Shown in pieces: positions 15,112-39,282 of a DNA stretch of 64,000 nt; position 1 is the first letter of the stretch; each line of letters opens with the position of its first letter. This DNA comes from Solwaraspora sp. WMMA2056 (GTDB taxonomy: Bacteria; Actinomycetota; Actinomycetes; Mycobacteriales; Micromonosporaceae), in the NCBI RefSeq assembly GCF_030345095.1, contig NZ_CP128360.1, positions 5,394,001-5,458,000 of the forward strand, in the 5' to 3' direction. The notes beneath the pieces are model-generated. The model ran no database searches. It worked only from the letters and a program-made list of their open reading frames with translations, and was not told the origin of the DNA. A program made the position numbers and the translations under genes.

Positions 15112-15115
15112 CCGG

Positions 15116-17720: not shown

Positions 17721-17746
17721 CGGGGTCTCCTGGGTGGTCGGCGGGC

Positions 17747-21591: not shown

Positions 21592-21605
21592 GGGCGTCTC
21601 CCTGG

Positions 21606-22964: not shown

Positions 22965-22974
22965 GGCGGGCCGG

Positions 22975-25256: not shown

Positions 25257-25786
25257 CCGGTCGCCTCGTTCTCCAGCGACAGCGGGGTGGCGGCGGCCGG
25301 GAAGATTCCCTCGACCTGCTTGGCGCCACGCTTGTAGACGTAGAAGGTGCGTTTGAAGGCGCAGACCTGTGCGCCGTCCTGGTTGAGGGTGCGGGTGCGG
25401 ACCGTCACGATCCCGGCGTACGGGCGGGACCCGGATTCACGCTTGTCGAGTACCAACGATTCACTGTAGAGGGTGTCGCCGGCGAACACCGGGTGCGGCA
25501 GGACGATCTCGTTCCAGCCGAGGTTGGCAAAGGCGTTCTGGGTGAGGTCGGTGACGCTCTGCCCGACCGCGATGGCCAGGGTCAGGGTGGAGACGACCAG
25601 TGGCCGCTCGAACTCCGACCGGGCGGCGTACTCGGTGTTGAAGTGCATCTGGCTGGTGTTCATCGTCAACAGGGTGAACCAGGTGTTGTCCGCCTCGGAC
25701 ACGGTGCGCCCGAGGGGATGCTGATAGACGTCGCCGACGCCGAAGTCTTCAAAGAAGCGTCCGGTCCACCCCTGCCGTACCGACAT
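25253..25786 (-). CDS. MaoC family dehydratase (Asp to Asn in dyad)
   Basis: First gene of the 14-gene operon. The 177-residue hotdog protein starts with GRFFEDFGVGDVYQHPLGRT and resembles mesaconyl-CoA-hydratase-like MaoC proteins often linked to CitE-like lyases. The dyad region is LLTMNTSQMHFNTEYAA (about 40-56): His is kept but the Asp position is Asn. Further on, HPVFAGDTLYSESLVLDKRE is typical of the family. It probably hydrates a branched enoyl-CoA whose product the CitE-like lyase cleaves. The promoter immediately upstream contains the GTCAGAC operator. Confidence 0.85.
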   Translation of the reverse strand: MSVRQGWTGRFFEDFGVGDVYQHPLGRTVSEADNTWFTLLTMNTSQMHFNTEYAARSEFERPLVVSTLTLAIAVGQSVTDLTQNAFANLGWNEIVLPHPVFAGDTLYSESLVLDKRESGSRPYAGIVTVRTRTLNQDGAQVCAFKRTFYVYKRGAKQVEGIFPAAATPLSLENEATG

Positions 25787-25821: not shown

Positions 25822-25850
25822 AGCTTATTTGTCTGACTTTTACGAGTCAA
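25822..25850 (-). promoter_or_regulatory. Promoter plus GTCAGAC operator of the 14-gene operon
   Basis: On the minus strand TTGACT (25850-25845), 17 bases, TAAGCT (25827-25822). The spacer holds GTCAGACA, followed by AATAAG at the -10 end. GTCAGAC (25837-25831) has the GTC-N-GAC core of FadR-type GntR operators. TGACT/AGTCA (25834-25838 and 25845-25849) also form an inverted repeat. A repressor here would block the RNA polymerase directly. The same core recurs at four other unit starts in this region. Confidence 0.65.
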
Positions 25851-25879
25851 GGGCCAGCAACTCAACCAGGCCAACGAAA

Positions 25880-25908
25880 ACGCCCTGCTCAGCACGACAG
25901 CAGGGCGT
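25880..25908 (-). terminator. Intrinsic terminator after the gntR unit
   Basis: Perfect 10-base stem (25880-25889 with 25899-25908), nine-base loop, followed on the minus strand by TTTTCG. It lies 39 bases beyond the GntR stop codon and separates that unit from the promoter of the 14-gene operon. Confidence 0.8.
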
Positions 25909-25946
25909 AGTTCCGAAACATCAGGTATTTAGTTGTGAGTTTGTCT

Positions 25947-26723
25947 TCAGTGTCCGTCGTACGCCCGGCGGACGGTACCCAGGTGGGCCCGCATCGCCGC
26001 CTGCGCACCCTCGACATCACCGGCCTCGACATAGCCGCAGATCTCGGTGTGTTCGGCGTCGATCTGGCTCCAGTACTCCGCGGGCATGTCGCGGTCGGCG
26101 GTCCGCGCCTGCAGCACCCGGAAGACCGGCTCGGCCATCACCCCGAGCAGCTGGTTACCGGTCGCCTCGACCAGCACCCCGTGGAAGGTCCGGTGCTCAC
26201 GGAACTTGCGGCCGCGGGCCCGGGTCGACTTCTCCCGCTCCACCGCTTGACGCATCAGCACCAGATGTTCGTCGGCGCGGCGCAGCGCGGCCAGCCCGGC
26301 CGCCGGCACCTCCAGGCACTCCCGCGCCTCCAGCAGGTTGTCCAACGTGATGTCCCGGGCCCCGGACATCAGCCCGAAGCTCATCTCCAGATACTCGCTC
26401 ACCTGGTCGAACTGCACCCGGGCCACGAAGGTGCCGCCGGTGGTTCCCCGGGTGGTGCGGATCAGATCCTTGGACGCCAGCACCCGCAACGCCTCCCGTA
26501 CCGTGCTACGGCTGACCCCGAAGATCTCCGACAGCTCGACCTCGGTCGGCAACCGGTCCCCCGCGGTCAGCGACCCGTCCAGGATCCGCTCCCGCAACTG
26601 GTCGGCGACCTGCTGGTACGCGGGTTGGACCCGGGTCACCCCGAGCACCCCAGGATCCCGGCGGTGCCCCGGGATCGCCTTTTCCGACCGGCTCGCCGGC
26701 TCGTGCGTCACGTCCTTGGCCAT
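25947..26723 (-). CDS. GntR regulator, FadR subfamily (FCD domain)
   Basis: A 258-residue regulator. The N-terminal winged helix (about 25-100) shows QQVADQLRERILDGSLTAGD and LPTEVELSEIFGVSRSTVRE followed by ALRVLASKDLIRTTRG. The C-terminal all-helical FCD ligand domain (about 115-245) has EARECLEVPAAGLAALR and the metal-site pattern EHRTFHGVLVEATGN, with a late His in IDAEHTEICGYVEAGD. FCD regulators bind carboxylic acids or acyl-CoA and release GTC-N-GAC-type operators. It is the only GntR in the island, so I infer that it controls the GTCWGAC sites. ATG 26723 is chosen because the HTH spacing then fits the family. Confidence 0.88.
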   Translation of the reverse strand: MAKDVTHEPASRSEKAIPGHRRDPGVLGVTRVQPAYQQVADQLRERILDGSLTAGDRLPTEVELSEIFGVSRSTVREALRVLASKDLIRTTRGTTGGTFVARVQFDQVSEYLEMSFGLMSGARDITLDNLLEARECLEVPAAGLAALRRADEHLVLMRQAVEREKSTRARGRKFREHRTFHGVLVEATGNQLLGVMAEPVFRVLQARTADRDMPAEYWSQIDAEHTEICGYVEAGDVEGAQAAMRAHLGTVRRAYDGH

Positions 26724-26817
26724 GGTCACTTCGGCTCCGCATCCTTTCGGACCCGCACACCGGAGTGCGGATTCGTCGCGAACCACCACGGTAGGGCATG
26801 GCGGACGCCGATCCGCG

Positions 26818-27744
26818 TCACTGTCGGCCATCCCCGGTCGAACGGGTGGTCCCGGCCAGCTCGCCGATCAGCGCCCGCGTTGCCGCCCGTTCCTCCGGGG
26901 TGCCGTAGAACTGGGCCGCGAAGGTGCTCGCCCCGGCCCGCGCATAGCGGTCGATCTCGGCCCGCACCTCGTCTGCGTCACCGACGATCGCCATCTGGTT
27001 GGCCCGCTGTAAACCTTCGCGGTCCAGCATCGCCCGGTAGGACGGCTTGTCGTCGTACCAGCCGAGCACCGGGTCGATCGCCGCGCGGGCCCGGGTCGGG
27101 TCGTCGGTGACGCAGACCGCGGCGGTCACCACGATCTCGGGGGCCGGCCGACCAGCCGTCCGCGCGGCGGCGGTGATCGCCGGTACGGTCAGCTCGGTCA
27201 GCGTGCGCGGGCCGACCATCCAGGTGATCGTGCCGGCGGCAAGGGCACCGGTCAGCTCCAGCATCTTCGGGCCCAGCGCGGAGACCATCACCGCCGGTGC
27301 CGGCGGGTCGCCGCTGATCGTCAGGTCACCCCGGGCGGTGATCACCTCACCGGTGTAGCGGACCCGCTGGGTCAGCGCGCCGGTCAGCGCGGTCAGGTAC
27401 TCGCGCATGTAGCGCGCCGGCCGCTCGTAGGACATCCCCCAGCAGGGCTCGACCACCTGCGGGTGCGACGGCCCGACGCCGAGCACCAACCGGCCGCCGA
27501 GCAGCATGTTGGTGGTGAGCGCCTGCTGGGCCAGGGCCATCGGGTGACGCGGGTAGACCGGCACCACGGCGGTGCCGATCCGCAGCCGGCTCAGCTGCCG
27601 ACCGTACGCGCCGATCACGGTCAGCGTGTCGTGCCCGAAGCCCTGCGTCAGCCAGTAGCTGGCGATCCCGTCGGCGTCGGCGGCCCGCAGGTCACGCTCG
27701 AGGTCGTCGAGCCGTTCGATGTGGCTGAAGATCCCGTAGTCCAT
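26818..27744 (-). CDS. Luciferase-like F420-dependent oxidoreductase
   Basis: The 308-residue protein starts MDYGIFSHIERLDDLERDLR and has the superfamily barrel with GTAVVPVYPRHPMALAQQAL, LLGGRLVLGVGPSHPQVVE and a long helical insert. The motif ALGPKMLELTGALAAGTITW is typical of the F420-dependent MSMEG_2516-like group. A GAGGGG site precedes ATG 27744; nine bases separate it from the hydratase gene. It may catalyse hydride transfer to or from F420 on a pathway intermediate; the substrate is unknown. Confidence 0.83.
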   Translation of the reverse strand: MDYGIFSHIERLDDLERDLRAADADGIASYWLTQGFGHDTLTVIGAYGRQLSRLRIGTAVVPVYPRHPMALAQQALTTNMLLGGRLVLGVGPSHPQVVEPCWGMSYERPARYMREYLTALTGALTQRVRYTGEVITARGDLTISGDPPAPAVMVSALGPKMLELTGALAAGTITWMVGPRTLTELTVPAITAAARTAGRPAPEIVVTAAVCVTDDPTRARAAIDPVLGWYDDKPSYRAMLDREGLQRANQMAIVGDADEVRAEIDRYARAGASTFAAQFYGTPEERAATRALIGELAGTTRSTGDGRQ

Positions 27745-27752
27745 CGTGCCCC

Positions 27753-28523
27753 TCAGTGCCGGAATTCCCGCATGGACTCGCCGCGCCGGGCGGTCGAGGC
27801 GTCGGAGCGGGCCAGCATCGCCAACCCGAACCCCTCGGCCGCGGACCGCTGCGCCTGCACCGCCGTCCACACCGTCTCCACCGTGGTGGTCAGCACGTCG
27901 AGCGGATGCTGGGCGATCTCGGTGGCGATGGCCAACGCCCGGTCCACCAGATCGGCGGGAGCGGTCACCTCGGTCACCAGACCGAGCTCCAGCGCCCGGC
28001 GGGCGTCGATGCGGTACGCGCGCCCGGTCAGCACCATCCGCATCAGCTCGCCGAGCGGCAGCCGCCCCAGCGCGCCGACCGCCTCGACCGGGTTGGCCAG
28101 GCCCACGTCGTGGTGGGTGTCGAAGAAGGTCGCCGTCTCGGTGCAGAGCACCACGTCGGCGTCGTTGACGAAGTGCCAACCACCGGCGCAGCAGTGCCCG
28201 TTGACCGCCGTCACCACCGGCTTGTAGACGCCCAGGTCGCGGGCGGTCAACGCGACCCGGCCGGCGTGGTCCAGCGACGGACTGGTGACCCCGGCGTCGA
28301 GGGTGTCGTCGACGTCGAAGCCGGTGCAGAAGCCGCGCTCGCCGGCTCCGGTCAGCACGGCGACGTGCAGGCCGTCGTCGGCACCGAACCAGCGCCAGGT
28401 ACGCCGCAGTTCGTCGACCATCACCCGGTCGTAGGCGTTGAGCCGGTGCGGCCGGTCCAGGGTGACCAGCAGCACCCGCCCGTGCCGGGTCAGCGTGAGG
28501 GTGCTGGTCGACGGCGGTTTCAC
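27753..28523 (-). CDS. Enoyl-CoA hydratase/isomerase family protein
   Basis: A 256-residue crotonase-fold protein. The first oxyanion element is GERGFCTGFDVDDTLDAG (about 61-78) and the second is AVNGHCCAGGWHFVNDADVV (about 107-126). The two catalytic Glu positions of classical hydratases are not clearly kept: the second-loop region reads THHDVGLANPVEAVG. It could be a hydratase, isomerase, hydrolase or C-C bond lyase of the superfamily. The start is GTG 28523, overlapping the MaoC-like gene (GTGA). Confidence 0.82.
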   Translation of the reverse strand: MKPPSTSTLTLTRHGRVLLVTLDRPHRLNAYDRVMVDELRRTWRWFGADDGLHVAVLTGAGERGFCTGFDVDDTLDAGVTSPSLDHAGRVALTARDLGVYKPVVTAVNGHCCAGGWHFVNDADVVLCTETATFFDTHHDVGLANPVEAVGALGRLPLGELMRMVLTGRAYRIDARRALELGLVTEVTAPADLVDRALAIATEIAQHPLDVLTTTVETVWTAVQAQRSAAEGFGLAMLARSDASTARRGESMREFRH

Positions 28524-29059
28524 GGCTGCTCCGGGTTTGCCGCGCCGACGCCCGGCGCAGAATCGGACTCGGACTCCGGCTCGGGCTCGGGCAGTGGGCG
28601 CAGCAGGTAGGAACGCGTCATCCGCAGGACGGTCTCGTCCCGCTGGTTGCGTACGTCGTCGTGCACCACGCCCACGTACATCCGCCCGCCCGGGGTCGGC
28701 TCCAACCGCGTCACCTCGATACGCACGCGTAGCGTGTCACCGGCGGACACCGGCCCGGTGTAACGGATCTCGTCGATGCCGAGCGCGGCGTGGCAGTCCA
28801 GGCCGGCGGCGTACCAGGCGGCGTACATGGTGGTCGAGGTGAGCCCGGCGGCGAGCGCGATCAGGCACGGCCCGCCCAGGATCGGCCGGCCGAACCCGGT
28901 GCCGCGCATGTACTCGGCGTCGGTGTGCAGCGGGCCGTTCTCCCAGGAGACGTTGACGATCGCGGCGAAGTCTCCGTCGGTCAGCGTCCGGGCCGGGGTG
29001 AGCAGCACCGCCCCGGCCGCGAACGCGGTCGGCAGCCGGGGTCGCAGCGCGCCGGTCAC
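28520..29059 (-). CDS. MaoC-like hotdog protein
   Basis: The 179-residue hotdog protein has TLTDGDFAAIVNVSWENGPL followed by HTDAEYM, so the His of the hydratase dyad is present and the acidic partner is Glu. RPILGGPCLIALAAGLTSTT and GPVSAGDTLRVRIEVTRLEP complete the fold. The C-terminal tail is acidic and repetitive (PEPEPESESDS). Probably a hydratase or dehydratase for an acyl-CoA intermediate. It begins with GTG overlapping the ABC ATPase gene, so transporter and enzymes are translated as one unit. Confidence 0.75.
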   Translation of the reverse strand: MTGALRPRLPTAFAAGAVLLTPARTLTDGDFAAIVNVSWENGPLHTDAEYMRGTGFGRPILGGPCLIALAAGLTSTTMYAAWYAAGLDCHAALGIDEIRYTGPVSAGDTLRVRIEVTRLEPTPGGRMYVGVVHDDVRNQRDETVLRMTRSYLLRPLPEPEPESESDSAPGVGAANPEQP

Positions 29060-29877
29060 GACGCACCCGGCCCGGCGAGTCGGGTGTGTGCCTCGTCGAC
29101 GACGAGACCACCGTCGTCGGTGGCGGTCATCGTCGAGATGATCTCGTGGGTGAGTTCGCGGCTGACGTCGAACAGCCGGGGATCGTCGTAGCTGCGCGGC
29201 AACGGCACCTCGACGTCGACCACCCGGCGTACGGTCGACGGCCGGTTGGACATCAGCACCACCCGGTCGGAGAGCACCGCGGCCTCGAACACGTTGTGGG
29301 TGACGAAGACGAACGCCTTGCCCGCCGTCTGGGTACGCAGTTCCAGCAGCAGCTGACGCAGGCTGCGGGCGGTGAACTCGTCCAGCCCGCTGAACGGCTC
29401 GTCCATCAGCATCACCGGCGCGTCCAGCACGAACGCCCGGGCTAGCGCGGTGCGCTGCTGCATGCCGCCGGAGATCTGGTGCGGATAGTGGTTCTCGAAG
29501 CCGGCCAGTCCGACCCGACGCAGCACCGGCATCACCCGGTCGGACCACTGCGCCCGGTCCACCCCGGTCGCCTTCAGGGCGAACTCGACGTTCTGCCGGA
29601 CTGTCTTCCAGGGCAGCAGCCGCGGCTCCTGGAACACGTAGCTGAACTGCACCCCCGGTGCCCCGCTGCGGATCTCGGCTGTGCCGGTGAAGTCGGTGTC
29701 CAGCCCGCTGAGCATGTTCAACACGGTCGACTTGCCACAACCGGACGGTCCGACCAGCGCGACGAACTCGCCGTCGGCAATCTCCAGGTTCATCCGCTCG
29801 ATGACCGTGATGAAGCCGTTGCGGGTGTGGAAGCCCTTGACCAGGTCGGATATGACGATCCGGGCGTCGGCGCTCAT
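29056..29877 (-). CDS. ABC ATPase, SsuB/TauB type
   Basis: The 273-residue ATPase shows Walker A GPSGCGKST, Q-loop YVFQEPRLLPWKTV (typical of the nitrate/sulfonate/taurine importer group), signature ISGGMQQR, Walker B VMLMDEPFSGLD and H-loop FVTHNVFEA. It works with the permease at 29874 and the binding protein at 30773. ATGA overlap with the permease. Confidence 0.92.
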   Translation of the reverse strand: MSADARIVISDLVKGFHTRNGFITVIERMNLEIADGEFVALVGPSGCGKSTVLNMLSGLDTDFTGTAEIRSGAPGVQFSYVFQEPRLLPWKTVRQNVEFALKATGVDRAQWSDRVMPVLRRVGLAGFENHYPHQISGGMQQRTALARAFVLDAPVMLMDEPFSGLDEFTARSLRQLLLELRTQTAGKAFVFVTHNVFEAAVLSDRVVLMSNRPSTVRRVVDVEVPLPRSYDDPRLFDVSRELTHEIISTMTATDDGGLVVDEAHTRLAGPGAS

Positions 29878-30737
29878 CGGGCCCCCTCCGGACGCCAGCG
29901 GAACAGCTTGGCCTCGATCGGTTTGAACACCGCCAACTCCAGCACCACCATCAGGATCGAGAAGAACAGCGTGAGTGCGAAGACCTGTTCCATCCGGAAG
30001 AGCTGGAACCAGTAGTTGAGCCGGTAGCCGATGCCGTCGGTGCGGCCGAGCAGCTCGGCGAGGACGACGACCTTCCACACGATGCCGAACCCGAACCGGG
30101 CCGAGGCCATCACCGCCGGCAGCACCTGGGGCAGGGTCACCTCCCGGGTACGCAGGCCCCGCGACGCACCGAGAGTGCGGGCCATCTGGCCGAGCCGGGG
30201 GTCGATCGCCTTGACCCCGGACCACATGTTGATCGCGATGATCGGAAAGGACGTCAGGGTGATCGCCACGACGGTGGCGGTGTCGTTGAGGCCGAACATG
30301 ATGAACGCGACGATCACCCAGCAGAGGCTGGGGATGGTCTGGCCGACGGCGATCCAGATGTCCAGCAGCCCTTCGGCGATCCGGGACAGCCCCATCACCA
30401 GACCGACCAGCACACCGAGCACCATGGAGGCGGCGAAGCCGATCAGGATCCGGACCATGGTGACCTGCAGGTCGGTCCAGAAGACCGTCTCCTGCACGCT
30501 GGTCACCAACGCCGACGCGGTGGTCCACGGGGTCGGCAGGATCCGCTCACCGACGGCCAGTGAACCCAGCCACCAGATGACGATCAGCATGAACACGGAG
30601 GCGATCCGCAGCGAGACGCCGTGCCGCAGGAAGCGGTGGGCACCACCGCGCCCACCGCCACCGCGGCCACCCGCCGCGCCACGATCCGCCGCTCCGGCCG
30701 TCGCGAGCGCCGGCTGGGTGGTTTCGGACAGGGTCAT
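29874..30737 (-). CDS. ABC permease, SsuC/TauC type
   Basis: A 287-residue permease with a glycine-rich cytoplasmic N-terminus (about 15-35) and six membrane spans. The EAA loop is MARTLGASRGLRTREVTLPQ (about 183-202), and the SsuC-like block GQTIPSLCWVIVAFIMFGLN precedes it. AGGAG lies before ATG 30737. It imports the compound captured by the SBP encoded 35 bases upstream. Confidence 0.92.
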   Translation of the reverse strand: MTLSETTQPALATAGAADRGAAGGRGGGGRGGAHRFLRHGVSLRIASVFMLIVIWWLGSLAVGERILPTPWTTASALVTSVQETVFWTDLQVTMVRILIGFAASMVLGVLVGLVMGLSRIAEGLLDIWIAVGQTIPSLCWVIVAFIMFGLNDTATVVAITLTSFPIIAINMWSGVKAIDPRLGQMARTLGASRGLRTREVTLPQVLPAVMASARFGFGIVWKVVVLAELLGRTDGIGYRLNYWFQLFRMEQVFALTLFFSILMVVLELAVFKPIEAKLFRWRPEGAR

Positions 30738-30772
30738 CGTGCGTCTCCTCGCGAGGCGGGGGGTGGTCGACG

Positions 30773-31807
30773 TCAGACGAACAGCCCGTCGGGCACCTCG
30801 GGCAGGAACTCCGGCTCACCGTTGTCGCTCAGGAAGGTGAGCAGCTCGGCGGCCTGCTGCTTCTCCTGCTCGCCCCACTGCTCGACGAGCCGGCCGCGCT
30901 GGTTCTCCCAGATGACGTCGAGCACTGCCTGGTCGTCGATCTCGTACAACTCCCGCAGGGCGCTGTCCCACAGCGACTGGTCGCCGTTGAACCGGGTCTG
31001 GTACTCGAGGTTCACGTCGACGAAGGCCTGCACGGCCTCCTGGTTGGCGTCGATGAAGTCGGTGGCGAAGTCCCAGCCGGCGGTGAACGCCTGCAGCCCG
31101 GTGGCCTCCTCCAGCAGCACGCCGAGGTCGCCCAGCGACCGGTACTCGCCGCTGACCACCCGGTCCGCACCGGCCGGGTCGATCACCAGTGCCATGTCCA
31201 CGTCGCCCTGGCCGAGCAGTTCGGCCATCAGGTTCGGGGCGCCGTACTGCACCTCGCAGTCGGTGGTGGGGTTGAAGCCGTGGTATTCGCGGCAGAGTGC
31301 GAAGAACTGGTTGGTGGAGGAACCGATCGCACTGCCGAACAGACCAAGCTTGCGCCCACGCAGGTCACCGAGGGACTGGATGTCGCTGTCGGCGCGCACC
31401 AGGATGCCGTTGGTGGTGCGCTGCAGCGCGCAGACGACCTTGCGGTCGACGCCGGTGGCGACCAGGTTGGCGGTGGACGGGATGCCGCCGAGGCCACCGT
31501 CGACCTCGTTGGCCCGGTACGCGGTGTAGACGGCGGCCGCCTCGGCGTACTCCTCGTACTGGATGTCGAGGCCGGCGGCCTCGAAGGCACCGTCGGACAT
31601 GGCGAGCTTGAACGCGGCGAGCGCCGAGGCCGGTAGTCCGGCGAGTCGGATCGTGGTGAGGTCGCCGTCGGCGGCGCCGGTGGAACCGGAGTCGGAGTCG
31701 TCGCTGCCGCAGGCGGTCAGCAGTACGCCGCCCATGAACGCGCCGCCGAGACCGGCGAGCACGGAGCGACGGGAGAGGGCGACACCGGAACTATTGAAGT
31801 GGGACAC
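30773..31807 (-). CDS. ABC substrate-binding protein, SsuA/NMT1-like, Tat lipoprotein
   Basis: The 344-residue binding protein has a twin-arginine signal (LSRRSVLAGLGGAF, about 11-24) ending in the lipobox LLTAC, so it is probably exported folded and lipid-anchored. The mature part is a two-lobed NMT1/SsuA-like fold: TTIRLAGLPASALAAFKLAM, YTAYRANEVDGGLGGIPSTA and SIQSLGDLRGRKLGLFGSAI. GTG 31807 has a perfect AGGAGG. Members bind sulfonates, nitrate, thiamine precursors, aromatic acids and more; the catabolic context favours an organic acid. The upstream region carries GTCAGAG/GTCAGAC sites. Confidence 0.88.
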   Translation of the reverse strand: MSHFNSSGVALSRRSVLAGLGGAFMGGVLLTACGSDDSDSGSTGAADGDLTTIRLAGLPASALAAFKLAMSDGAFEAAGLDIQYEEYAEAAAVYTAYRANEVDGGLGGIPSTANLVATGVDRKVVCALQRTTNGILVRADSDIQSLGDLRGRKLGLFGSAIGSSTNQFFALCREYHGFNPTTDCEVQYGAPNLMAELLGQGDVDMALVIDPAGADRVVSGEYRSLGDLGVLLEEATGLQAFTAGWDFATDFIDANQEAVQAFVDVNLEYQTRFNGDQSLWDSALRELYEIDDQAVLDVIWENQRGRLVEQWGEQEKQQAAELLTFLSDNGEPEFLPEVPDGLFV

Positions 31808-31892
31808 GATGGCCTCCTGATCACGAAGTCCGTGCGGTCGACAGGTGAGCCGCGAGCCGCATCGGGACCTTGGTGCGGATGACACTAACGGC

Positions 31893-31923
31893 CTCTGACC
31901 AGCCAGTCCACTAAAAGTCAGAG
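31893..31923. promoter_or_regulatory. Paired operator CTCTGAC-N17-GTCAGAG
   Basis: CTCTGAC (31893-31899) and GTCAGAG (31917-31923) form a perfect seven-base inverted repeat separated by 17 bases. Each half resembles the GTC-N-GAC operator core, and the context TAAAAGTCAGA (31912-31922) matches the operator upstream of the 14-gene operon. It lies 86-116 bases upstream of the transporter-led unit. Confidence 0.5.
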
Positions 31924-32024
31924 TTTTACCGTACTGACACAATCTCCACCGCTGGCAGCAGCGCAACAAGCGGGCAGCGCCGCGTTTCAATACGGGTACA
32001 GCGACGAAAACCGTCCCACCCACA

Positions 32025-32037
32025 TTGGTCAGACATT
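32025..32037. promoter_or_regulatory. GTCAGAC operator-like site
   Basis: TTGGTCAGACATT contains the exact GTCAGAC core (32028-32034). It sits in the 250-base gap between the transporter unit and the end of the ligase gene, so it most likely serves the transporter unit from a distance, together with the paired site at 31893-31923. Confidence 0.45.
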
Positions 32038-32057
32038 GGAAGAGAAGGCGCCTACAA

Positions 32058-33593
32058 TCAACCCTTACCAGGTTGACTGACGTACTCGTCGCGGATCGTC
32101 CGCTTGAGGATCTTCCCGCTCGGGTTGCGCGGCAACTGGTCGACCACGTGCCATTCCCGGGGAACCTTGTACCGCGCCACGTGCTCCCGTACGTAGCCAT
32201 CCAGCGTGGAGACGTCGATCTGCTGGCCGGCACGGCTCACCACGAACGCGGCGATCCGCTCGCCGTACACCTCGTCCGGAACGCCGACCACCGCGACCTC
32301 GTCCACCGGCCCGTGCCGCGCGATGACCTCCTCGATCTCGCGGGGGAAGATGTTCACCCCACCCGCGATGATCATGTCCTTCTTCCGGTCGACGATCGAG
32401 ATGAAGCCTTCCTCGTCACGGACCGCGATGTCGCCGACCGAGAAGAAGCCGTCGGCGTCGTACCCGGCCCGGGTCGCCTCCTCGTCGTTGAGATAGCCGG
32501 TCAGCAGCAGCGGCGAACGCGCGTACAGCTCGCCGGGCTCACCCGGGCCGACCTGCGCCCCGTCCTCGTCGACCAGCCGTACCTCGTTCCAGAACCACGG
32601 ATGACCCACGCTGCCCGCCCGGTCCAGCGCGAACTCCGGCCGCAGGTTGGTCACGATCGAGCACTCCGTCGACCCGTAGAGCTCGTGCACCTCCACGCCG
32701 GGAAACGCCTCGATCACCCACTCCTTGAGCGCGACCGGCAACGCGGCGGCGTTGAAGTAGAGGGTCTTCAGCGCCGACAGGTCGTAGCGGGCCGCCGGCT
32801 CCGGACAGAACCGGCGGATGTGCTGGGCGTGGGTGGGCACCAGGAAGACCGTCTCCGCCCGGCTGCTCACCATCAGGTCGAGCAGCCGCTGCGGATCCCA
32901 GCTCGGCAGTACCGTGCAGGAGCCGCCGAGCATCGGTGCCGCGTACGCGAACTCGAAGCCGGCGCCGTGGTACATCGGCGCCACCGCGATCGTGCTGCGG
33001 TTCGGGCCCAGCCCGTAGTCCAGCCCCACCCCGAACGCGGTCAGCACCCGACCCCGGTGGGTGAGCAGCACGCCCTTGGGTCGCCCGGTGGTGCCGGAGG
33101 TGTACGTGACGCAGAACGGGTCCAGTTCGTCGACCGGCACCTGCGGGTCGACCGCCCGCCCACCGTCGAGGAACCTCCCGTAGTGCTCGCCCACCCCGCC
33201 GTCGAAGCTGAGCACCAGCCGCAGGCCGTCGAGCAGCCCGTCGACCCGGTCGGCGAGGTCGTCGGCGACGATGATCCCCTGGGCGGCCGAGTGGGCCAGG
33301 ATGTACGCGTTGTCGGTCACGTTGTTGCGCGGGTTCAACGGCACCGTCGGGATGCCGGCCTTGGCCATCGCCGCGGAGATCTCGAAGTACTCGTACCGGT
33401 TGTTGCTCAGCACCGCGATCCGCTCGCCGGGGGCCAGCCCCCGGGCGAGGGTGGCACTGGCCAGTTGACTGGACCGCTGGTGCAGGGCGCCGAAGGTGAC
33501 CTCGCGGTCGCCGTCGACCACCGCGACCCGGCGCGGCGTGGCGCGGCCGAACTCCCGGATCCCGGCCGCCATGTTGAGCTGCACACCCGTCAC
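32058..33593 (-). CDS. AMP-forming acyl-CoA ligase (FadD-like)
   Basis: A 511-residue ANL-superfamily ligase. The P-loop is YTSGTTGRPKGVLLTHRG (about 164-181). ELYGSTECSIVT (A5), FFSVGDIAVRDEEGFISIVD (A7/A8 with the hinge) and GKILKRTIRDEY with the catalytic Lys (A10) are intact. It converts a carboxylic acid, ATP and CoA to acyl-CoA, AMP and PPi and would activate the imported acid. GTG 33593 overlaps the upstream hotdog gene (GTGA). It is the last gene of a four-gene unit. Confidence 0.9.
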   Translation of the reverse strand: MTGVQLNMAAGIREFGRATPRRVAVVDGDREVTFGALHQRSSQLASATLARGLAPGERIAVLSNNRYEYFEISAAMAKAGIPTVPLNPRNNVTDNAYILAHSAAQGIIVADDLADRVDGLLDGLRLVLSFDGGVGEHYGRFLDGGRAVDPQVPVDELDPFCVTYTSGTTGRPKGVLLTHRGRVLTAFGVGLDYGLGPNRSTIAVAPMYHGAGFEFAYAAPMLGGSCTVLPSWDPQRLLDLMVSSRAETVFLVPTHAQHIRRFCPEPAARYDLSALKTLYFNAAALPVALKEWVIEAFPGVEVHELYGSTECSIVTNLRPEFALDRAGSVGHPWFWNEVRLVDEDGAQVGPGEPGELYARSPLLLTGYLNDEEATRAGYDADGFFSVGDIAVRDEEGFISIVDRKKDMIIAGGVNIFPREIEEVIARHGPVDEVAVVGVPDEVYGERIAAFVVSRAGQQIDVSTLDGYVREHVARYKVPREWHVVDQLPRNPSGKILKRTIRDEYVSQPGKG

Positions 33594-34006
33594 CGTGGGT
33601 CCGCCTTTCCCGATTCGTTCATCAGCATGACGGCCTCGGCCTCGGCGAGCAGTGCCCCGTCGGCGTCGACGGCGGTCCACCGCAGCTCGGCCACGACCTT
33701 GCCACTGGAGGTGCTCCGGCTGGCAAGGCGCTCGATCCGCACCCGCAGCGTGGTGCCGGCCCGGACCAGCCGATGGAACCGCATCCGGCGCAGCTCCAGC
33801 AGCGCGATCGCGTCGTCGAGCTGCCCGGACTGCTCGGCCAGGCCGCCCATCAGCAGCAGCACCGCCTGGCCGGGCAGCGGCGGGCCACCGTCCCTGCCCG
33901 GGTCGGGCGGGTTGAACAGCGGATGCGTGTAGCCGCCCCGACCGATCAGGGTGTCGACCAGCTCCGCGGTGACGGTGACCGACGGTTCAGCCGAGGTCGC
34001 GGACAT
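33590..34006 (-). CDS. Hotdog-fold protein
   Basis: The 138-residue protein fits a single hotdog domain: VDTLIGRGGYTHPLFNPPDP, then LPGQAVLLLMGGLAEQSGQL and RAGTTLRVRIERLASR. The MaoC Asp/His dyad is not clearly present, so a thioesterase-like or accessory binding role is as likely as a hydratase. It overlaps the upstream hydratase gene by 20 bases. Confidence 0.65.
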   Translation of the reverse strand: MSATSAEPSVTVTAELVDTLIGRGGYTHPLFNPPDPGRDGGPPLPGQAVLLLMGGLAEQSGQLDDAIALLELRRMRFHRLVRAGTTLRVRIERLASRSTSSGKVVAELRWTAVDADGALLAEAEAVMLMNESGKADPR

Positions 34007-34793
34007 CGACGTCCCCCCAGACCGGCTCGCGCTTGTCGACGAACGCCCGATAGCCCTCGGCCACCTCGGGCACCTCCTCGTGCAGCCGGGAGAACATCTC
34101 GCGCTCGTAGCGCAGGCCCTCCTCCAGCGTCATCGTGTGCACCGAGTTGAGCAGCCGCTTGGTGATCGCCATCGCCGGTCGGGACCGGCCGCGCAGCGAC
34201 GACAGCAGTTTGCCGACCTCGTCGTCGAGCTGCGCCCGTGGTGCGCTGGCCAGCGCGACCCCCCACTGCACCAGCTCCGGCCCGCGCAGCCACAGCGGGG
34301 TGAGCATCAGCGCCTTGGCCCGCTGGTCGCCGAGCTTGCGCGGAGCACGCTGGCTGGAGCCGGCCCCGGGCGGCATGCCGAACTCCAGGTGGATGTCGCC
34401 CACCTTCGCCTCGTCGGCGGCGATCACGAAATCACAGGCCAGGATCAACTCGAAGCCACCGGCGCGGGCGAGGCCGTTGACCCGGGCGACGACCGGTACG
34501 CCGAGCCGCTCGATCCGACGCAGTACCGCGTGGTACGAGCGCAGGAACGGCAGGAAGATCCGCTGTGGATCGGCGAAGCAGGATTCCAGGAAGTCGATGT
34601 CCATGCCGACGCTGAACGCCCGGTCCCCCACTCCGGTGATCACCACGGCCCGCAGGGTGTGATCGACCTCGGCGGCGGCCAGGGCGGCGTCCAGTCCGGC
34701 GATCGCCGCCGGCGTCAGGCTGTTCATCGTCTCCGGGCCGTCGAGGACGATCGTCATCACCTGGTCGTCGGTGGCGTACCGTACGTCGGTCAC
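33987..34793 (-). CDS. Enoyl-CoA hydratase/isomerase family protein
   Basis: A 268-residue crotonase-fold enzyme. The first oxyanion loop is DRAFSVGMDIDFLES (about 57-71); the second is NGLARAGGFELILACDFVIA (about 107-126), with family end DIHLEFGMPPGAGSSQRAPR. The helical C-terminus has SVHTMTLEEGLRYEREMF. It could hydrate an enoyl-CoA, shift a double bond or cleave a ring. GTG 34793 overlaps the cupin gene by four bases. Confidence 0.85.
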   Translation of the reverse strand: MTDVRYATDDQVMTIVLDGPETMNSLTPAAIAGLDAALAAAEVDHTLRAVVITGVGDRAFSVGMDIDFLESCFADPQRIFLPFLRSYHAVLRRIERLGVPVVARVNGLARAGGFELILACDFVIAADEAKVGDIHLEFGMPPGAGSSQRAPRKLGDQRAKALMLTPLWLRGPELVQWGVALASAPRAQLDDEVGKLLSSLRGRSRPAMAITKRLLNSVHTMTLEEGLRYEREMFSRLHEEVPEVAEGYRAFVDKREPVWGDVDVRDLG

Positions 34794-35737
34794 GTCGTCG
34801 TCTCCCCCACCTTGACGAACAGTTCGACGTCGGTGTCGGCGACGAACGCGGGTGCCGGCACCCCGGCCGGTACGTGCACCAGCGAGCAGGCGGTCAGGGT
34901 CCGCCCGGCGACCGTCGCCGTCCCGCCGGTGGTGACGAAGAACCGTTCCCGGTCGACCGGCCGCGGCGTGCCGGTGTAGCCGGCCGGCAACCGGACCAAC
35001 GCGCTGCATGCCCCGGTGGCCACGTTGCGGCTCAGCGGCTTGCCGACCGGCACGGTCGGCGACGCGACGCCCGCCGGGCCGACCTCCGGGACCGCCGGCG
35101 TCACCGGCCCGGCCGTCACCGGCAGACCGAGTACGCCGGGGTCGAGGCCCGACCATCGGGCGTCGATCGGTGCCCAGGGCAGGTGCCGCGACTCGACCCG
35201 GCGCAGGTACCCGCGCGGTCCGACGCCGTCGGCGTGCGCGCCGGTCCCGCCAGCCGCGCCGGTCCCGCCAGCCACGGCGATGGCCTGCTCCCCGGCCTGG
35301 TGGTCCGGGCAGACCACCCGGGTCACCCGGTCGCTGCCCTCGCTGGCGACCGCACCCTCCATGCAGAGGATGTTCTCGAATCCCTCGTCGCTCCAGGCCT
35401 TGTGCACCCAGCCCGGCGGACGCCAGAAGTAGTCCCCGGCGATCAGCCGGCCTTCGGCGCTGAGTTCGGCGGCACCGTCGAGGAAGTACGCCTCCTCGAC
35501 GCTGTCGTGGTACGCCTCGCTGAGGTCGCGGTAGCCGGCGACGGCCCGGACGTGATCGATCCGCCGGGTGCTGTCGCGGTCCAGCCACAACGACCGCATC
35601 CAGTACCGGGACAGCAGTTCACGCACCTGGTCGGGGTCGCCGCCGAAGTTGTCGCGGAAGGCGGGCTCCATCGAGTCGTACACCTGCTCGCCGTTGACCC
35701 ACGGCACGTCCTCGGCGTCGACGATCGTGACTGTCAT
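34790..35737 (-). CDS. Two-domain cupin protein
   Basis: The 315-residue protein shows two cupin-like halves: residues about 60-150 (SVEEAYFLDGAAELSAEGRL followed by IAGDYFWRPPGWVHKAW, with Glu and a PPGWVH motif) and about 230-315 (RERFFVTTGGTATVAGRTLT, HVPAGVPAPAFVAD). Between them is a Gly/Ala linker with a short tandem repeat. Bicupins include dioxygenases and decarboxylases; only some metal ligands are recognisable, so no reaction is assigned. A GGAGGT site precedes ATG 35737. First gene of its unit; the operator/promoter lies about 53 bases upstream. Confidence 0.65.
   Translation of the reverse strand: MTVTIVDAEDVPWVNGEQVYDSMEPAFRDNFGGDPDQVRELLSRYWMRSLWLDRDSTRRIDHVRAVAGYRDLSEAYHDSVEEAYFLDGAAELSAEGRLIAGDYFWRPPGWVHKAWSDEGFENILCMEGAVASEGSDRVTRVVCPDHQAGEQAIAVAGGTGAAGGTGAHADGVGPRGYLRRVESRHLPWAPIDARWSGLDPGVLGLPVTAGPVTPAVPEVGPAGVASPTVPVGKPLSRNVATGACSALVRLPAGYTGTPRPVDRERFFVTTGGTATVAGRTLTACSLVHVPAGVPAPAFVADTDVELFVKVGETTT
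35240..35275. repeat. Two copies of an 18-base tandem repeat in the cupin linker
   Basis: GCCGGTCCCGCCAGCC recurs after 18 bases (35240-35255 and 35258-35273). It encodes a repeated six-residue AGGTGA-type linker between the two cupin domains. Confidence 0.6.
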
Positions 35738-35789
35738 CCGGGTACCTCCACCTCCCGCCGCCACCGGCGGGTGCGCCCACGGTCTCAAA

Positions 35790-35803
35790 CTAATATGTCT
35801 GAC
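35790..35803 (-). promoter_or_regulatory. GTCAGAC operator at the cupin-ligase unit
   Basis: Read on the minus strand, GTCAGACATATTAG matches GTCAGACAAATAAG at the 14-gene operon in 12 of 14 positions, including the position directly in front of the presumed -10 box (TATTAG). No strong -35 box is evident. It lies about 53 bases upstream of ATG 35737. Confidence 0.6.
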
Positions 35804-35933
35804 GTTAAGCGGAACGATATCGGCGACCAGCGTCCGGAGCCGGCTCTGTTTCCACTTGGTAAACCGGGAACTGCCAGCAAAGAGGCACTTCCTGACCACA
35901 CTCTGCCGGCGGGAGACCCGGTCTGGCAAGACC

Positions 35934-35963
35934 TTGACAGCCGCCATCCCTATTCATCAGACT
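35934..35963 (+). promoter_or_regulatory. Promoter with operator for the MFS gene
   Basis: TTGACA (35934-35939), 18 bases, CAGACT (35958-35963), then TTTTG. ATCAGAC (35956-35962) overlaps the -10. The same layout, TTGACA-N18-CAGACTTTTG, occurs at 39282-39253 on the other strand. The site is about 23 bases upstream of GTG 35986. Confidence 0.6.
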
Positions 35964-35985
35964 TTTGCCCGGAAGGCGGTGGCCG

Positions 35986-37260
35986 GTGTCGACCTCTCCG
36001 CTGGAGGAACCCTTACGGCGCGGCGACGCGACCGACAGCCCGGTCATCGGCGACCGGCGAGCGCCGACGACCGGATCGGCGTACCCGCCATCGGCGCGGA
36101 TGGCCGCCGCCTCCGGCGCGCTGATCCTCGTCGCCGTACTGGGCAGCTTCGCCGCCTCGCCGCTGTTCGCGATCTACGCCGACCGCTGGGCGCTGACCCC
36201 GGCGCAGGTCGCCGTGGCGTTCGCCGGCTATCCCGTCGGGGTGATCCTGGTCGTCACGCTGCTCGGCGGCCTGTCCGACCTGATCGGCCGGCGGGCGGCG
36301 ATGTTCGGCGGCGTCGCACTGGTGCTGGCGGCGTGCCTGGTGACCGCCACCGCGACGTCGCTGCCGGCGCTGGTCGCCGGGCGGATCGTGCAGGGGATGG
36401 CGACCGGCATGGTCAGCGCCACCACCGCCGCCGCGCTGTTGGACTTCCACCCTCGGGGCACCCGGGCGGGCACCCTGACCCATTCGGTCTGCACCACTCT
36501 CGGCATGGGGCTCGCACCGCTGATGTCCGGGCTGCTCGCCGACCACACCCGGTACCCGCTGGTGCTGCCGTTCGTCGTCATCGGCGCGGCCGCCCTGGTG
36601 CCGCTGACCCTGCTGGTCCGCACGCCGCCCGACCGCCGGACGACGCAGCGGGTCCGACTGGTCCGCGCGGTCCGGGTCCCCCGCGACATCCTGCTGCCGT
36701 TCAGCATCGCCGCCTGCTCGCTGATGACCCTCAACGGCTGCATGGCGCTGTTCGGAACCTTCGGCTCCCGGATCCTCGCCGAAGGCGCCGGCGTCACCGC
36801 CGCCGGTGGCGCCGGCGGACTGCTCACCCTGCTGATCGGCATGACCCTGCTGTCCCAGGTGCTGCTGAACCGGCTCGACGCGACCCGGTCGCTCTGCTTC
36901 GGCGTCGTGGCGATCACCGCCGGCGCGGGGGCCACCGCGCTCGCCCTGCACCTGGGCAGCCCGGCCGTCACCGTCACCGGGGCCGTACTGATCGGCTTCG
37001 GTGGCGGGCTGACGCTGCTCGGCGCCACCAGGCTGATCGGCGAGTCGGCACCGATCCACCGGCGGGCGGAGATCTTCGCGGCGTGGATGGTGGCCGCCTT
37101 CGCCACGCTCGGCGGCAGCTCACTGCTCAGTGGCGTCGCGTTGACCGGCGCCTCGCTGCCGGCGGTGCTGACCGTCGCGACCGGCGTCATCGCCCTGCTC
37201 TGCGCGTACACGCTGGTCGCCGCCACGGTCCACGGCCGACGCCGGCGCGCACGGCGCTGA
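35986..37260 (+). CDS. MFS transporter
   Basis: The 424-residue membrane protein has about 12 predicted spans. The cytoplasmic loop 2-3 motif GGLSDLIGRRAAMFGG is the MFS signature. An AR-rich N-terminal tail (about 40 residues) precedes the first span. It may export a pathway product or import the substrate. GTG 35986 is preferred over TTG 35965 because the latter would lie inside the promoter/operator and the former has AAGGCGG before it. Divergent from the cupin-ligase unit, convergent with the nitronate monooxygenase. Confidence 0.85.
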   Translation: MSTSPLEEPLRRGDATDSPVIGDRRAPTTGSAYPPSARMAAASGALILVAVLGSFAASPLFAIYADRWALTPAQVAVAFAGYPVGVILVVTLLGGLSDLIGRRAAMFGGVALVLAACLVTATATSLPALVAGRIVQGMATGMVSATTAAALLDFHPRGTRAGTLTHSVCTTLGMGLAPLMSGLLADHTRYPLVLPFVVIGAAALVPLTLLVRTPPDRRTTQRVRLVRAVRVPRDILLPFSIAACSLMTLNGCMALFGTFGSRILAEGAGVTAAGGAGGLLTLLIGMTLLSQVLLNRLDATRSLCFGVVAITAGAGATALALHLGSPAVTVTGAVLIGFGGGLTLLGATRLIGESAPIHRRAEIFAAWMVAAFATLGGSSLLSGVALTGASLPAVLTVATGVIALLCAYTLVAATVHGRRRRARR

Positions 37261-37271
37261 GCCCCGGCCCG

Positions 37272-38414
37272 TCAGTCGCTGGCGCGAGCGGGGTCGTCGC
37301 TGGCATCGTCGTCGGCCAGGGCGGTGAGGTCGCCGACCGCGTCGGCCATGCCGGTCCGCAGGTCGTCCAGCACACTGGCGACGGAACGCACCCGGTCCAC
37401 CAGGCCGACCGCCTGACCCGCCGCCGAACCCATCACCGGCGTGACCTGGTGCTCGAACGAGCTGACCACGGCGTCGCGGGCCAGCAGTTGCTGCACTGGG
37501 GAGGCCAGTGGCGCCGGGGCGTCCGGTTGCCGCCAGGCCCGGGTCCACGCGGTGCTCAGCTGCCGGGTCGGCTTGCCGGTGTACGACGTCGTCTTCGCGG
37601 TGTCGGTGGCCGCCGCCGTCACGATCTTGTCCTTGACGACCGGGTCGAGGTCGCTCTCGGCGGTGGCGAGCCAGATCGATCCCGTCCACACCGCCTGGGC
37701 GCCCAGTGCCAGCGCGGCGACCACCTGGCGGCCGGTGGCGATGCCGCCGGCGGCGACGACCGGCACCTCACCGGCGGCGGCCACCACCTGCGGCACCAGC
37801 ACCATCGAGGTGATCTCTCCGGTGTGCCCGGCCGCCTCGTAGCCCTGGGCGACGATCACGTCGACGCCGGCGGCCAGTTGGTGCCGTACGTGTCGTGGGT
37901 CGCCGACCAGGCCGGCGACCAGCATGTCGAGTTTCGTCGCGGCGGCCCGCACCGGGGCGGGCGGCGGCCCGAGCGCGCTGGCCACCAGCCGCACCGGGTG
38001 GGCCCGTACGACCTCCCACAGCGCGTACGCGTTCGCATGGGTCATCAGGTGGTCGATCTCGGTCGGCATCCCGCCGAGCCGGGTCCGGCCAGGTTCACTG
38101 CGGCGCAGCGGAATACCGAGTCGGGTCCGCAACCCGGCAACGAAGTCCTGGTGCCCGGCCGGGATCTGGGCGAGCAGGTCGGTCGGGTCGTCACCGGCGG
38201 ACCTGGCGGGAAAGAGCAGGTCGACACCGTACGGGGAACGTCCGCACTCGCGGTCGAGCCAGGCGAGATCCTGCTCGAGGTCGTCCGGGGACATCGAGGC
38301 CGCGCCGAGCACCCCGAGCCCACCGCCCCGGCTGACCGCCGCCACCACGTCGCGGCAGTGGCTGAAGGCGATCACCGGCAGGCCGATGCCGACCCGTCGA
38401 CACAGCGGGGTCAC
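37272..38414 (-). CDS. Nitronate monooxygenase family (NMO/2-nitropropane dioxygenase-like)
   Basis: A 380-residue FMN-dependent TIM-barrel protein. GGGLGVLGAASMSPDDLEQDL (start of the phosphate-binding part), VDVIVAQGYEAAGHTGEITS (with the conserved GH), then VPVVAAGGIATGRQVVAALA and LGAQAVWTGSIWLATAES are typical. NMOs oxidise nitronates, but many relatives are enoyl reductases or unknown. Its C-terminal 80 residues are longer than the core family. GTG 38414 overlaps the racemase-like gene (GTGA). Confidence 0.83.
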   Translation of the reverse strand: MTPLCRRVGIGLPVIAFSHCRDVVAAVSRGGGLGVLGAASMSPDDLEQDLAWLDRECGRSPYGVDLLFPARSAGDDPTDLLAQIPAGHQDFVAGLRTRLGIPLRRSEPGRTRLGGMPTEIDHLMTHANAYALWEVVRAHPVRLVASALGPPPAPVRAAATKLDMLVAGLVGDPRHVRHQLAAGVDVIVAQGYEAAGHTGEITSMVLVPQVVAAAGEVPVVAAGGIATGRQVVAALALGAQAVWTGSIWLATAESDLDPVVKDKIVTAAATDTAKTTSYTGKPTRQLSTAWTRAWRQPDAPAPLASPVQQLLARDAVVSSFEHQVTPVMGSAAGQAVGLVDRVRSVASVLDDLRTGMADAVGDLTALADDDASDDPARASD

Positions 38415-39235
38415 GACGACGTGCCCAGGGTCACCGCGCAGACCTCGCAGCCGTCGTCGTCGACGGTGCAATTCGAGCCCGGCTGCACCGCGACACCCAG
38501 GTAGGCGTCGACCAGCGCGCTGACCGCGCCGAGCCGGCCGGTCGGCGGCACCGGTCGGGTCGCGGCGAGGGCCGCGGCGTGCCCGGCTGCCAGTCCGACG
38601 ACCGACGGGTCGACGATCTCGATGCCGACCCGGCCGGCCACCTCGGCGGTCACCGGGGTCATGCAGGTGCAGCCGAAGAAGATCAGGTCGGTGCCGTCCC
38701 GGTCGGCGGCCCGCAGGCACGCGGCGGAGATGGCGTCGACGACGACGGTCTCGCCCCGGGCCATCCGTGCCTTGACCCCGGCGTCGGTGCCGACCCGGTC
38801 CAGTTCCGTCTCGTCGGACAGGTAGTGCACCCCGGCGGCGAGGGCACCACCGGCGCACCTGCTCAGCCGCTCGGCGTAGAGGTAGTCCATCGAGGCGGGC
38901 CAGACGGTGACGATGCTGAACCGCCGACCGAGCCGGGCCGCCCAGGCCAGGGACGCCTCGCCGGCACCGACGATCGGCACCGAAGTGGCGGCGCGCAGCC
39001 GGTCCACGCCGTAGTCGCCGAACGTGTCGATGTAGACGGCGTCGCAGCCGGCGGCGATCGCAGCCTCGGCGACGTCGACCGTGCCGACCTCGGTGAGCAG
39101 GTGCTCGTACGGGGTACGGGCGAACCGGCGCAGCCGTGGATCGACGAGTTCGGTGACGAGGCCGGGTGGATCGGGCAGCACCGGGGCCCGCTTCGCGTCG
39201 GAGTTGATGACCGCCAGCCGTCGCAGCTCACTCAT
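38411..39235 (-). CDS. Asp/Glu racemase superfamily protein with only one active-site Cys
   Basis: The 274-residue protein belongs to the Asp/Glu/hydantoin racemase superfamily. The C-terminal catalytic Cys is present in FFGCTCMTPVTAEVAG (about 199-214). The N-terminal Cys of two-base racemases is missing: the segment is DAVYIDTFGDYGVDRLRA with Thr in its place. One-Cys members include arylmalonate decarboxylase, which keeps only the C-terminal Cys. A decarboxylase or isomerase role is therefore as likely as racemisation. GGGAGGT precedes ATG 39235, and the promoter/operator lies directly upstream. Confidence 0.8.
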   Translation of the reverse strand: MSELRRLAVINSDAKRAPVLPDPPGLVTELVDPRLRRFARTPYEHLLTEVGTVDVAEAAIAAGCDAVYIDTFGDYGVDRLRAATSVPIVGAGEASLAWAARLGRRFSIVTVWPASMDYLYAERLSRCAGGALAAGVHYLSDETELDRVGTDAGVKARMARGETVVVDAISAACLRAADRDGTDLIFFGCTCMTPVTAEVAGRVGIEIVDPSVVGLAAGHAAALAATRPVPPTGRLGAVSALVDAYLGVAVQPGSNCTVDDDGCEVCAVTLGTSS

Positions 39236-39252
39236 GTCGACCTCCCGCCAAA

Positions 39253-39282
39253 AGTCTGACTTATCAAGGTCGGCAGTGTCAA
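39253..39282 (-). promoter_or_regulatory. Promoter with palindromic operator for the racemase-NMO unit
   Basis: Minus strand: TTGACA (39282-39277), 18 bases, CAGACT (39258-39253). AAGTCTGACTT (39252-39262) is a perfect 11-base palindrome around the -10 box. This is the clearest copy of the operator and overlaps the promoter, as expected for a repressor. Confidence 0.7.

Follow-up and report, generated by a model that had tools for sequence, protein, structure and literature searches.

A GntR/FCD regulator and its predicted local set of 15-bp operators in a putative catabolic gene island of Solwaraspora sp. WMMA2056

Gene Organization of the Island

We analyzed a 64,000-bp stretch of the Solwaraspora sp. 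WMMA2056 genome (contig NZ_CP128360.1, positions 5,394,001 to 5,458,000 of the forward strand; hereafter the window), which contains an island of five gene units, a gene encoding a GntR/FCD regulator (gntR), and six short sites that we predict to be the operators of this regulator. The units were delimited by strand and gene spacing, on which their presumed co-transcription rests, and together hold 28 genes (14 + 7 + 4 + 1 + 2), in agreement with the count in a preliminary description of the locus made from the bare sequence. Unit 1 (13152..25786, minus strand) is a 14-gene operon transcribed from 25,786 down to 13,152, and begins with a MaoC hydratase, followed in our gene list by an LLM oxidoreductase, CaiB, MmgE/PrpD, a RidA-like protein, FAS1-DH, and a second MaoC, and then by thiolase-like and OB/ChsH2-like proteins, an acyl-CoA dehydrogenase, HpcH/CitE, a cupin, a thioesterase, and another acyl-CoA dehydrogenase. 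Unit 2, the transporter unit (25947..31807, minus strand), consists of seven genes encoding an NMT1/SsuA-type solute-binding protein (start at 31807 picked by eye), a permease, an ABC ATPase, MaoC, an enoyl-CoA hydratase, an LLM oxidoreductase, and, as its last gene, GntR. A hairpin followed by TTTT after gntR (25880..25908, minus strand; z = -2.1, with 7 of 200 shuffles folding equally well) is terminator-like and lies between gntR and the 14-gene operon.

The four-gene unit 3, the cupin-ligase unit (32058..35737, minus strand), encodes a cupin_7 protein, an enoyl-CoA hydratase, a 138-aa protein without a family, and an AMP-forming ligase. Unit 4 is a single MFS transporter gene on the plus strand (35986..37260, with its GTG start at 35986 picked by eye), and unit 5, the racemase-NMO unit (37272..39235, minus strand), comprises an Asp/Glu/hydantoin racemase family protein and a nitronate monooxygenase (NMO) family protein. 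Adjoining unit 5 is a gene for an extracytoplasmic function (ECF)-type sigma factor with a DUF6596 domain (39357-40661).

The regulator gene (25947..26723, minus strand) encodes 258 aa. In the longer open reading frame (ORF) at 25947-26831, an N-terminal GntR winged helix-turn-helix (PF00392, 74.7 bits vs. a cut-off of 27) is followed by a C-terminal FCD domain (PF07729, 76.3 bits vs. a cut-off of 24.3), and by these predicted domains the protein is a member of the FadR (FCD) subfamily. It scores under the curated cut-off of each of the 25 NCBIfam models listed (of 27), including FadR (28.3 bits vs. 189), LldR (82.8 vs. 311), NanR (101 vs. 260), GlcC (78.3 vs. 301), and PdhR (71.1 vs. 330). 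Three His residues of the FCD pocket (H181, H225, and H247) are kept in at least 32 of 33 homolog rows; from LldR-like proteins we take them to be metal ligands that hold carboxylates. An Asp four residues before the first of these His is not present in the window GntR, where position 177 is His; the aligned homologs have His, Asn, Thr, or Gln at this position, and Asp in one locus only (L034). Because of the three conserved His, with their presumed metal role, a small carboxylate appears at least as probable a ligand as an acyl-CoA.

Predicted Operators and Their Promoter Context

Of the six predicted operators, S1 (AAAAGTCAGACAAAT, 25827..25841, minus strand) precedes the 14-gene operon, S5 (AAAAGTCAGAGTTTT, 31913..31927, plus strand) lies ~110 bp before the solute-binding-protein gene, and S6 (CAATGTCTGACCAAT, 32024..32038, minus strand), the second operator of the transporter unit and the weakest by score, is 111 bp from S5 and ~224 bp upstream of the first gene in that unit. 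S2 (TAACGTCAGACATAT, 35793..35807, minus strand) precedes the cupin-ligase unit, S4 (AAAAGTCTGATGAAT, 35952..35966, minus strand) covers what may be the -10 of the MFS gene, and S3 (AAAAGTCTGACTTAT, 39250..39264, plus strand) likewise that of the racemase-NMO unit. The GTCWGAC cores reported in the preliminary description (25831-25837, 32028-32034, 35797-35803, and 39254-39260), as well as its variants ATCAGAC (35956-35962) and GTCAGAG (31917-31923), are all found at those coordinates. Its CTCTGAC/GTCAGAG pair holds for GTCAGAG, which is S5; the CTCTGAC copy at 31893 was dropped because its flanks are missing, and it falls outside the best 25 matrix hits listed. The perfect palindrome AAGTCTGACTT noted at S3 is correct apart from the central base, an exception inevitable in any site of odd length.

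Two promoter layouts are shared within the window, each exact and occurring twice as had been described: TTGACA-N18-CAGACTTTTG at 35934 (plus strand) and 39282 (minus strand), and GTCAGACAWATWAG at 35803 and 25837 (both minus strand). S4 and S3 overlap the CAGACT hexamer of TTGACA-N18-CAGACT, while S1 sits between TTGACT and TAAGCT (17-bp spacer), the hexamers of a putative promoter for the 14-gene operon. With the hexamers assigned by eye, the placement of S1 inside a promoter-like pair and that of S3 and S4 on a -10-like hexamer would be as expected of a repressor's sites. Paired sites as in S5 and S6 are also seen in four loci of relatives, at 115 bp (L039), 76 bp (L043), 74 bp (L076), and 84 bp (L071), and the spacing of these pairs and of the pair in the window could permit looping.

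The bare 7-mer GTCWGAC, which had been taken as the marker of the units, did not withstand the background comparison proposed with it: 6 copies are observed in the window vs. 12.5 expected from shuffles, and 408 copies in the 7,010,427-bp genome vs. 351 for a reversed control. At background frequency in both, it is uninformative and was rejected as a genome marker. Two extra copies in the window, at 30772 and 60613, are without A/T flanks. The signal resides in the A/T flanks around the core, and the informative unit is the 15-bp operator AAANGTCWGANNWAT.

The string AAAAGTCWGA is found only 5 times in the genome, with 4 of these copies in a 13.4-kb part of the island (window 25,832-39,259), and its reversed control has none; the fifth copy (C1:4843717), at the 5' end of a seemingly unrelated gene (by eye in the ORF list), was taken as chance. 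AAANGTCWGANNWAT itself has 3 exact copies in the genome, always inside the island, and at up to one mismatch it occurs in 10 places, 6 of which coincide exactly with S1, S5, S6, S2, S4, and S3 (reversed control: 3); among these places there is no likely target elsewhere in the genome. As the pattern was drawn up from the sites in the window and in relatives once these had been seen, these clustering statistics are descriptive. Similarly, a matrix built from the six window sites places those six at the top of the window (22.2-34.0 bits, the next at 17.8), a result that is partly circular. The GTCWGAC core is intact in 4 of the 6 sites, with S4 and S5 departing by one base, and the predicted operators fit the GT-N3-AC palindromic core expected of the FadR (FCD) subfamily.

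Conservation Within the Genus

Three of the seven species searched, the window's included, possess gntR at 99-100% identity, and each has 3 exact AAANGTCWGANNWAT sites, none of them outside the island. In the four species that lack gntR there is no exact AAANGTCWGANNWAT, and the matches at up to one mismatch are scattered. The four near-matches that lie outside the island in the window genome recur as identical 15-mers in one of these species (G002), and they are thus unlikely to be operators of GntR.

In a three-species alignment of four spacers, 88 of 90 columns are identical within the operator 15-mers, compared with 489 of 689 elsewhere (one-sided Fisher p = 1.8e-10, the columns not being strictly independent). 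All 15 columns are conserved in S1, S2, S3, S4, and S5, and the contrast is sharpest at S3, whose whole spacer has 66 of 121. S6 forms a conserved block (13/15) amid a stretch that is scrambled in G006, where the site is more than one mismatch from the pattern. Between the window and G005, in a comparison over 26000-31800, the permease-to-CaiB proteins are 100% identical, the racemase and MFS proteins 85%, and the cupin 76%; this unevenness suggests recent exchange of part of the island.

Association of the Operator With gntR Across the Order

We searched 397 genomes of the order, scoring the best 6 candidates per genome, and regarded 32 of them as gntR-positive (homolog at E <= 1e-30). The exact operator is found in 62 of the 397 genomes (its reversed control matches 10), with a strong bias towards those that have the regulator: 20 of 32 gntR-positive vs. 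42 of 365 gntR-negative genomes (Fisher p = 2.2e-10), or 19 of 31 positives without the window's own genome. The distance between gntR and the nearest exact operator ranges from 15 bp to 6.4 kb in these 20 genomes. Of the 22 exact hits in gntR-positive genomes, 21 lie within 10 kb of gntR, the remaining one being S3 of the window.

In the eight loci opened from the 42 gntR-negative genomes with an exact match (L057-L062, L065, and L066), neither a gntR homolog nor a core pathway cluster was found nearby. Six genomes of the same family without gntR (G021, G151, G234, G250, G360, and G383) have an identical AAAAGTCAGATAAAT in common, near which no core pathway genes were found in the two loci opened (L059 and L060); it is perhaps the site of another FCD regulator. 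Two loci of distant FCD relatives, L006 (30%) and L007 (27%), served as controls, and no site within one mismatch of WWWNGTCWGACNWWW was found in these two.

Genes Behind the Operator in Relatives

We further examined 32 loci with gntR homologs: 31 from 28 of the 31 other gntR-positive genomes (two each from G027, G260, and G265; G119, G133, and G271 opened to 3.7 kb at most), plus Homoserinimonas L005. Recurrent neighbors of gntR in these loci are MaoC, CaiB, acyl-CoA dehydrogenase, HpcH, and MmgE/PrpD. The matrix was made from the six window sites only, and at a threshold of 16 bits, fixed after its first scan, 41 of 49 sites are upstream of homologs of gntR, MaoC, PrpD, HpcH, acyl-CoA dehydrogenase, or the ligase (counting from 40 bp inside to 350 bp before the projected start). 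A site precedes gntR itself in 14 of the 32 loci, 7 of these being shared divergent spacers. Over 18 other loci the six-site matrix scores 383.6, compared with 207.9 +/- 18.4 and a maximum of 297 for 300 column-permuted matrices.

In L005, where the regulator is 66% identical, a near-match stands directly before gntR, and an operon encoding a dipeptide-type ABC transporter and an amidase has two sites upstream. In this locus gntR is separated from the pathway genes by two transposase genes, of DDE and IS110 type (L005:6186-9718), which suggests a mobile island.

Recognition Helix and Candidate Operator Variants

The recognition helix reads RST (R72, S73, and T74, numbered from P0001 in the homolog alignment) in 28 of the 32 loci. 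Nearly all of these (26 of 28, the exceptions being L042 and L047) contain one or more sites that reach 16 bits, and in 24 a site is upstream of a pathway gene or gntR (L005 and L056 also lacking one there). The other four loci (L064, L067, L068, and L069), a small sample of four genomes in three genera, have an R[NG]T helix, and in none of the four is there a site of at least 16 bits upstream of gntR or pathway genes; L068 has one elsewhere. Instead, they carry altered palindromes with an AAACCT-N3-AGGTTT or GTCCAAT core in place of GTCWGAC. The upstream regions before MaoC and gntR in L064 hold TAAACCTCCAAGGTTTA and AAACCTTGGAGGTTT, that of L069 holds CAAAGGTAGAACCTTTG, and in L067 and L068 repeats resembling TAAACGTCCAATAGTTAGG occur twice each (by eye, in the printed spacers). 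The AAACCT-type palindrome was not found in the 13 RST loci checked. These few loci provide a lead that a change in the recognition helix may accompany loss of the motif.

We tentatively propose, and rate at somewhat less than an even chance, that the regulator represents an undescribed actinobacterial FCD family over a widespread diacid-CoA pathway (MaoC, CaiB, acyl-CoA dehydrogenase, CitE-like lyase, and MmgE/PrpD), in which substitution of S73 by Asn or Gly accompanies a core switch from GTCWGAC to GTCCAAT or AAACCT-N3-AGGTTT, making a natural specificity series. The contrast between RST and R[NG]T would offer a handle on DNA choice by FCD regulators.

Proposed Mechanism and Pathway

We consider it highly probable that a dedicated FadR-subfamily (GntR/FCD) repressor binds the six predicted operators and controls the five units, its own gene included, as a local regulon released by a pathway intermediate. 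The sites, their clustering and conservation, and their association with gntR homologs and homologous genes were computed, and from these we infer binding, repression, autoregulation, the ligand class, and the pathway. A GntR dimer would bind the near-palindromic operators at or near the promoters of the five units and block transcription of the 28 genes until a pathway intermediate binds and releases it; as this ligand we favor a short-chain di- or tricarboxylate that sits in the FCD metal pocket. Since S5 and S6 stand before the unit that ends with gntR, the protein would also regulate its own supply.

The pathway itself would convert a short diacid to its CoA ester, which is then oxidized, hydrated, and split, through CoA transfer, dehydrogenation, hydration, and CitE-like cleavage. 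The nearest solved enzymes are beta-methylmalyl-CoA dehydratase for MaoC, formyl-CoA or succinate-HMG CoA-transferases for CaiB, IDS-epimerase and then IRG1/cis-aconitate decarboxylase for MmgE/PrpD, CitE-like lyases for HpcH, and FadE3 for the acyl-CoA dehydrogenase, and the racemase has weak matches to hydantoin-racemase structures. These suggest a short branched diacid-CoA route, and nothing narrower. The operator would mark the members of one pathway, among them the MFS and racemase-NMO units, which are not assignable by homology alone, and a promoter-reporter on any operator site could reveal the pathway substrate. Farther along the window lies a DyP-type peroxidase gene (47086-48333).

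Weighing the Evidence

The earlier prediction that the GntR/FCD protein reads these sites and controls the five units is supported at the level of sequence, since the operators are conserved in diverging spacers, the operator tracks and adjoins gntR, sites precede homologs of gntR and the pathway genes, and loci with a changed helix are without the motif there. What began as a guess from bare sequence thus becomes a specific and testable assignment of regulator, operator, and targets, covering 28 genes here and a recurrent gene set in other actinobacteria.

Several observations weigh against this assignment. Within the window, S6 is weak and S5 is off-pattern on its right side, and since G005 is nearly identical to the window in mid-island, conservation there rests on two effective sequences. 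The 32-locus count relies on a post-hoc threshold, is without a shuffled control of its own, and includes several close relatives; one strong site in L005 falls within a coding region (an ABC ATPase gene). Across the order, 12 of the 32 gntR-positive genomes are without an exact operator. Six of them (G011, G073, G166, G239, G260, and G339) have, before gntR or a pathway gene, a site that reaches 16 bits, and the other six (G014, G069, G144, G288, G318, and G355) have no such site; among the latter, three have R[NG]T helices throughout, as does G144, and G014 and G069 have RST. Finally, the matches in 42 gntR-negative genomes exceed the 10 expected from composition, so that other regulators probably use similar sites, and, with six candidates scored per genome, a few gntR-negative labels may be wrong.

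An activating role of GntR at the operators, or a mixed one with some units repressed and others activated, is unlikely. Such a role would suit S5 and S6, which at ~110 and ~224 bp upstream of the first gene are not clearly on a promoter, whereas S1, between the putative -35 and -10, and S3 and S4, over a putative -10, are in positions that normally block polymerase; moreover, AnsR of Corynebacterium glutamicum, whose site has this core, has been described as a repressor (PMC9145765). We give still less credence to a different reader of the motif, for instance a distant GntR paralog or else the neighboring ECF sigma factor (39357-40661), with gntR as a passenger. GTCWGAC cores are common to several GntR regulators, exact operators in gntR-negative genomes are above the reversed control, and the sigma factor gene adjoins S3; on the other hand, the motif accompanies gntR across many genera despite differing neighbor genes, precedes gntR itself in the 14 loci noted above, and is missing upstream of these genes in the loci with a different recognition helix.

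It is very improbable that the repeats descend from a single promoter by duplication and have no operator role: the two promoter pairs do share their layout beyond the core, yet the operators are retained while the flanking spacer bases change, and in distant genera homologs of these genes are preceded by the same motif. Chance resemblance selected by eye, as the background frequency of the 7-mer might suggest, is hardly credible. It is contradicted by genomes that played no part in motif discovery, where the operator still goes with gntR, and clustering, conservation, the order-wide association, and the matrix controls speak otherwise as well. The preferred reading therefore remains a dedicated repressor with its local operators.

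Comparison With Known Systems

A search of the open-access literature (titles and the beginnings of abstracts, with subscription papers outside its scope) found no description of this operator or of a regulator of this gene set, and among the matches listed for 11-base operator strings no title names this regulator or gene set. To E. coli FadR, the namesake of the subfamily, the window GntR is only a remote cousin, at 28.3 bits against the cut-off of 189. The ligand of E. coli FadR is acyl-CoA, to which nothing in the window points. The GntR protein of PDB entry 2di3, which we take to be LldR of C. glutamicum, aligns to the window GntR over residues 35-248 (51.5 bits). It has an Asp, a residue with a recognized role in that protein, four residues before its first His, where the window GntR has His177.

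LhgR of Pseudomonas putida W619 is a GntR-family regulator of the FCD type. It controls L-2-hydroxyglutarate catabolism through the footprinted operators TAGTCTGACAA and TTGTCTGACAA with the core GTCTGAC (PMC8206213). It resembles the system in the window in this core within palindromic operators, in an organic-acid catabolic target, and in binding its own promoter, and differs in its flanks (TA/TT..AA vs. AAAN..NNWAT in the window), in its pathway, and in that two promoters are named for it vs. five units here (PMC8206213).

AnsR, a FadR-subfamily repressor of asparagine use in C. glutamicum, has the site ACCTGTCTGACAGCT, which was tested by mutation (PMC9145765). It shares with the window system an actinobacterial host, the same core in ACCTGTCTGACAGCT, and a regulator gene within its own operon, and differs in the other flanks and genes and in an operator downstream of the transcription start (PMC9145765). 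The same source quotes the FadR-subfamily operator consensus TNGTNNNACNA, and a predicted site in M. smegmatis, GTGTGGTCAGACCACAC, is given in PMC2018728. Set beside these systems, the predicted regulon is well supported and local and its FCD regulator is new, while the control circuit is of a familiar kind.

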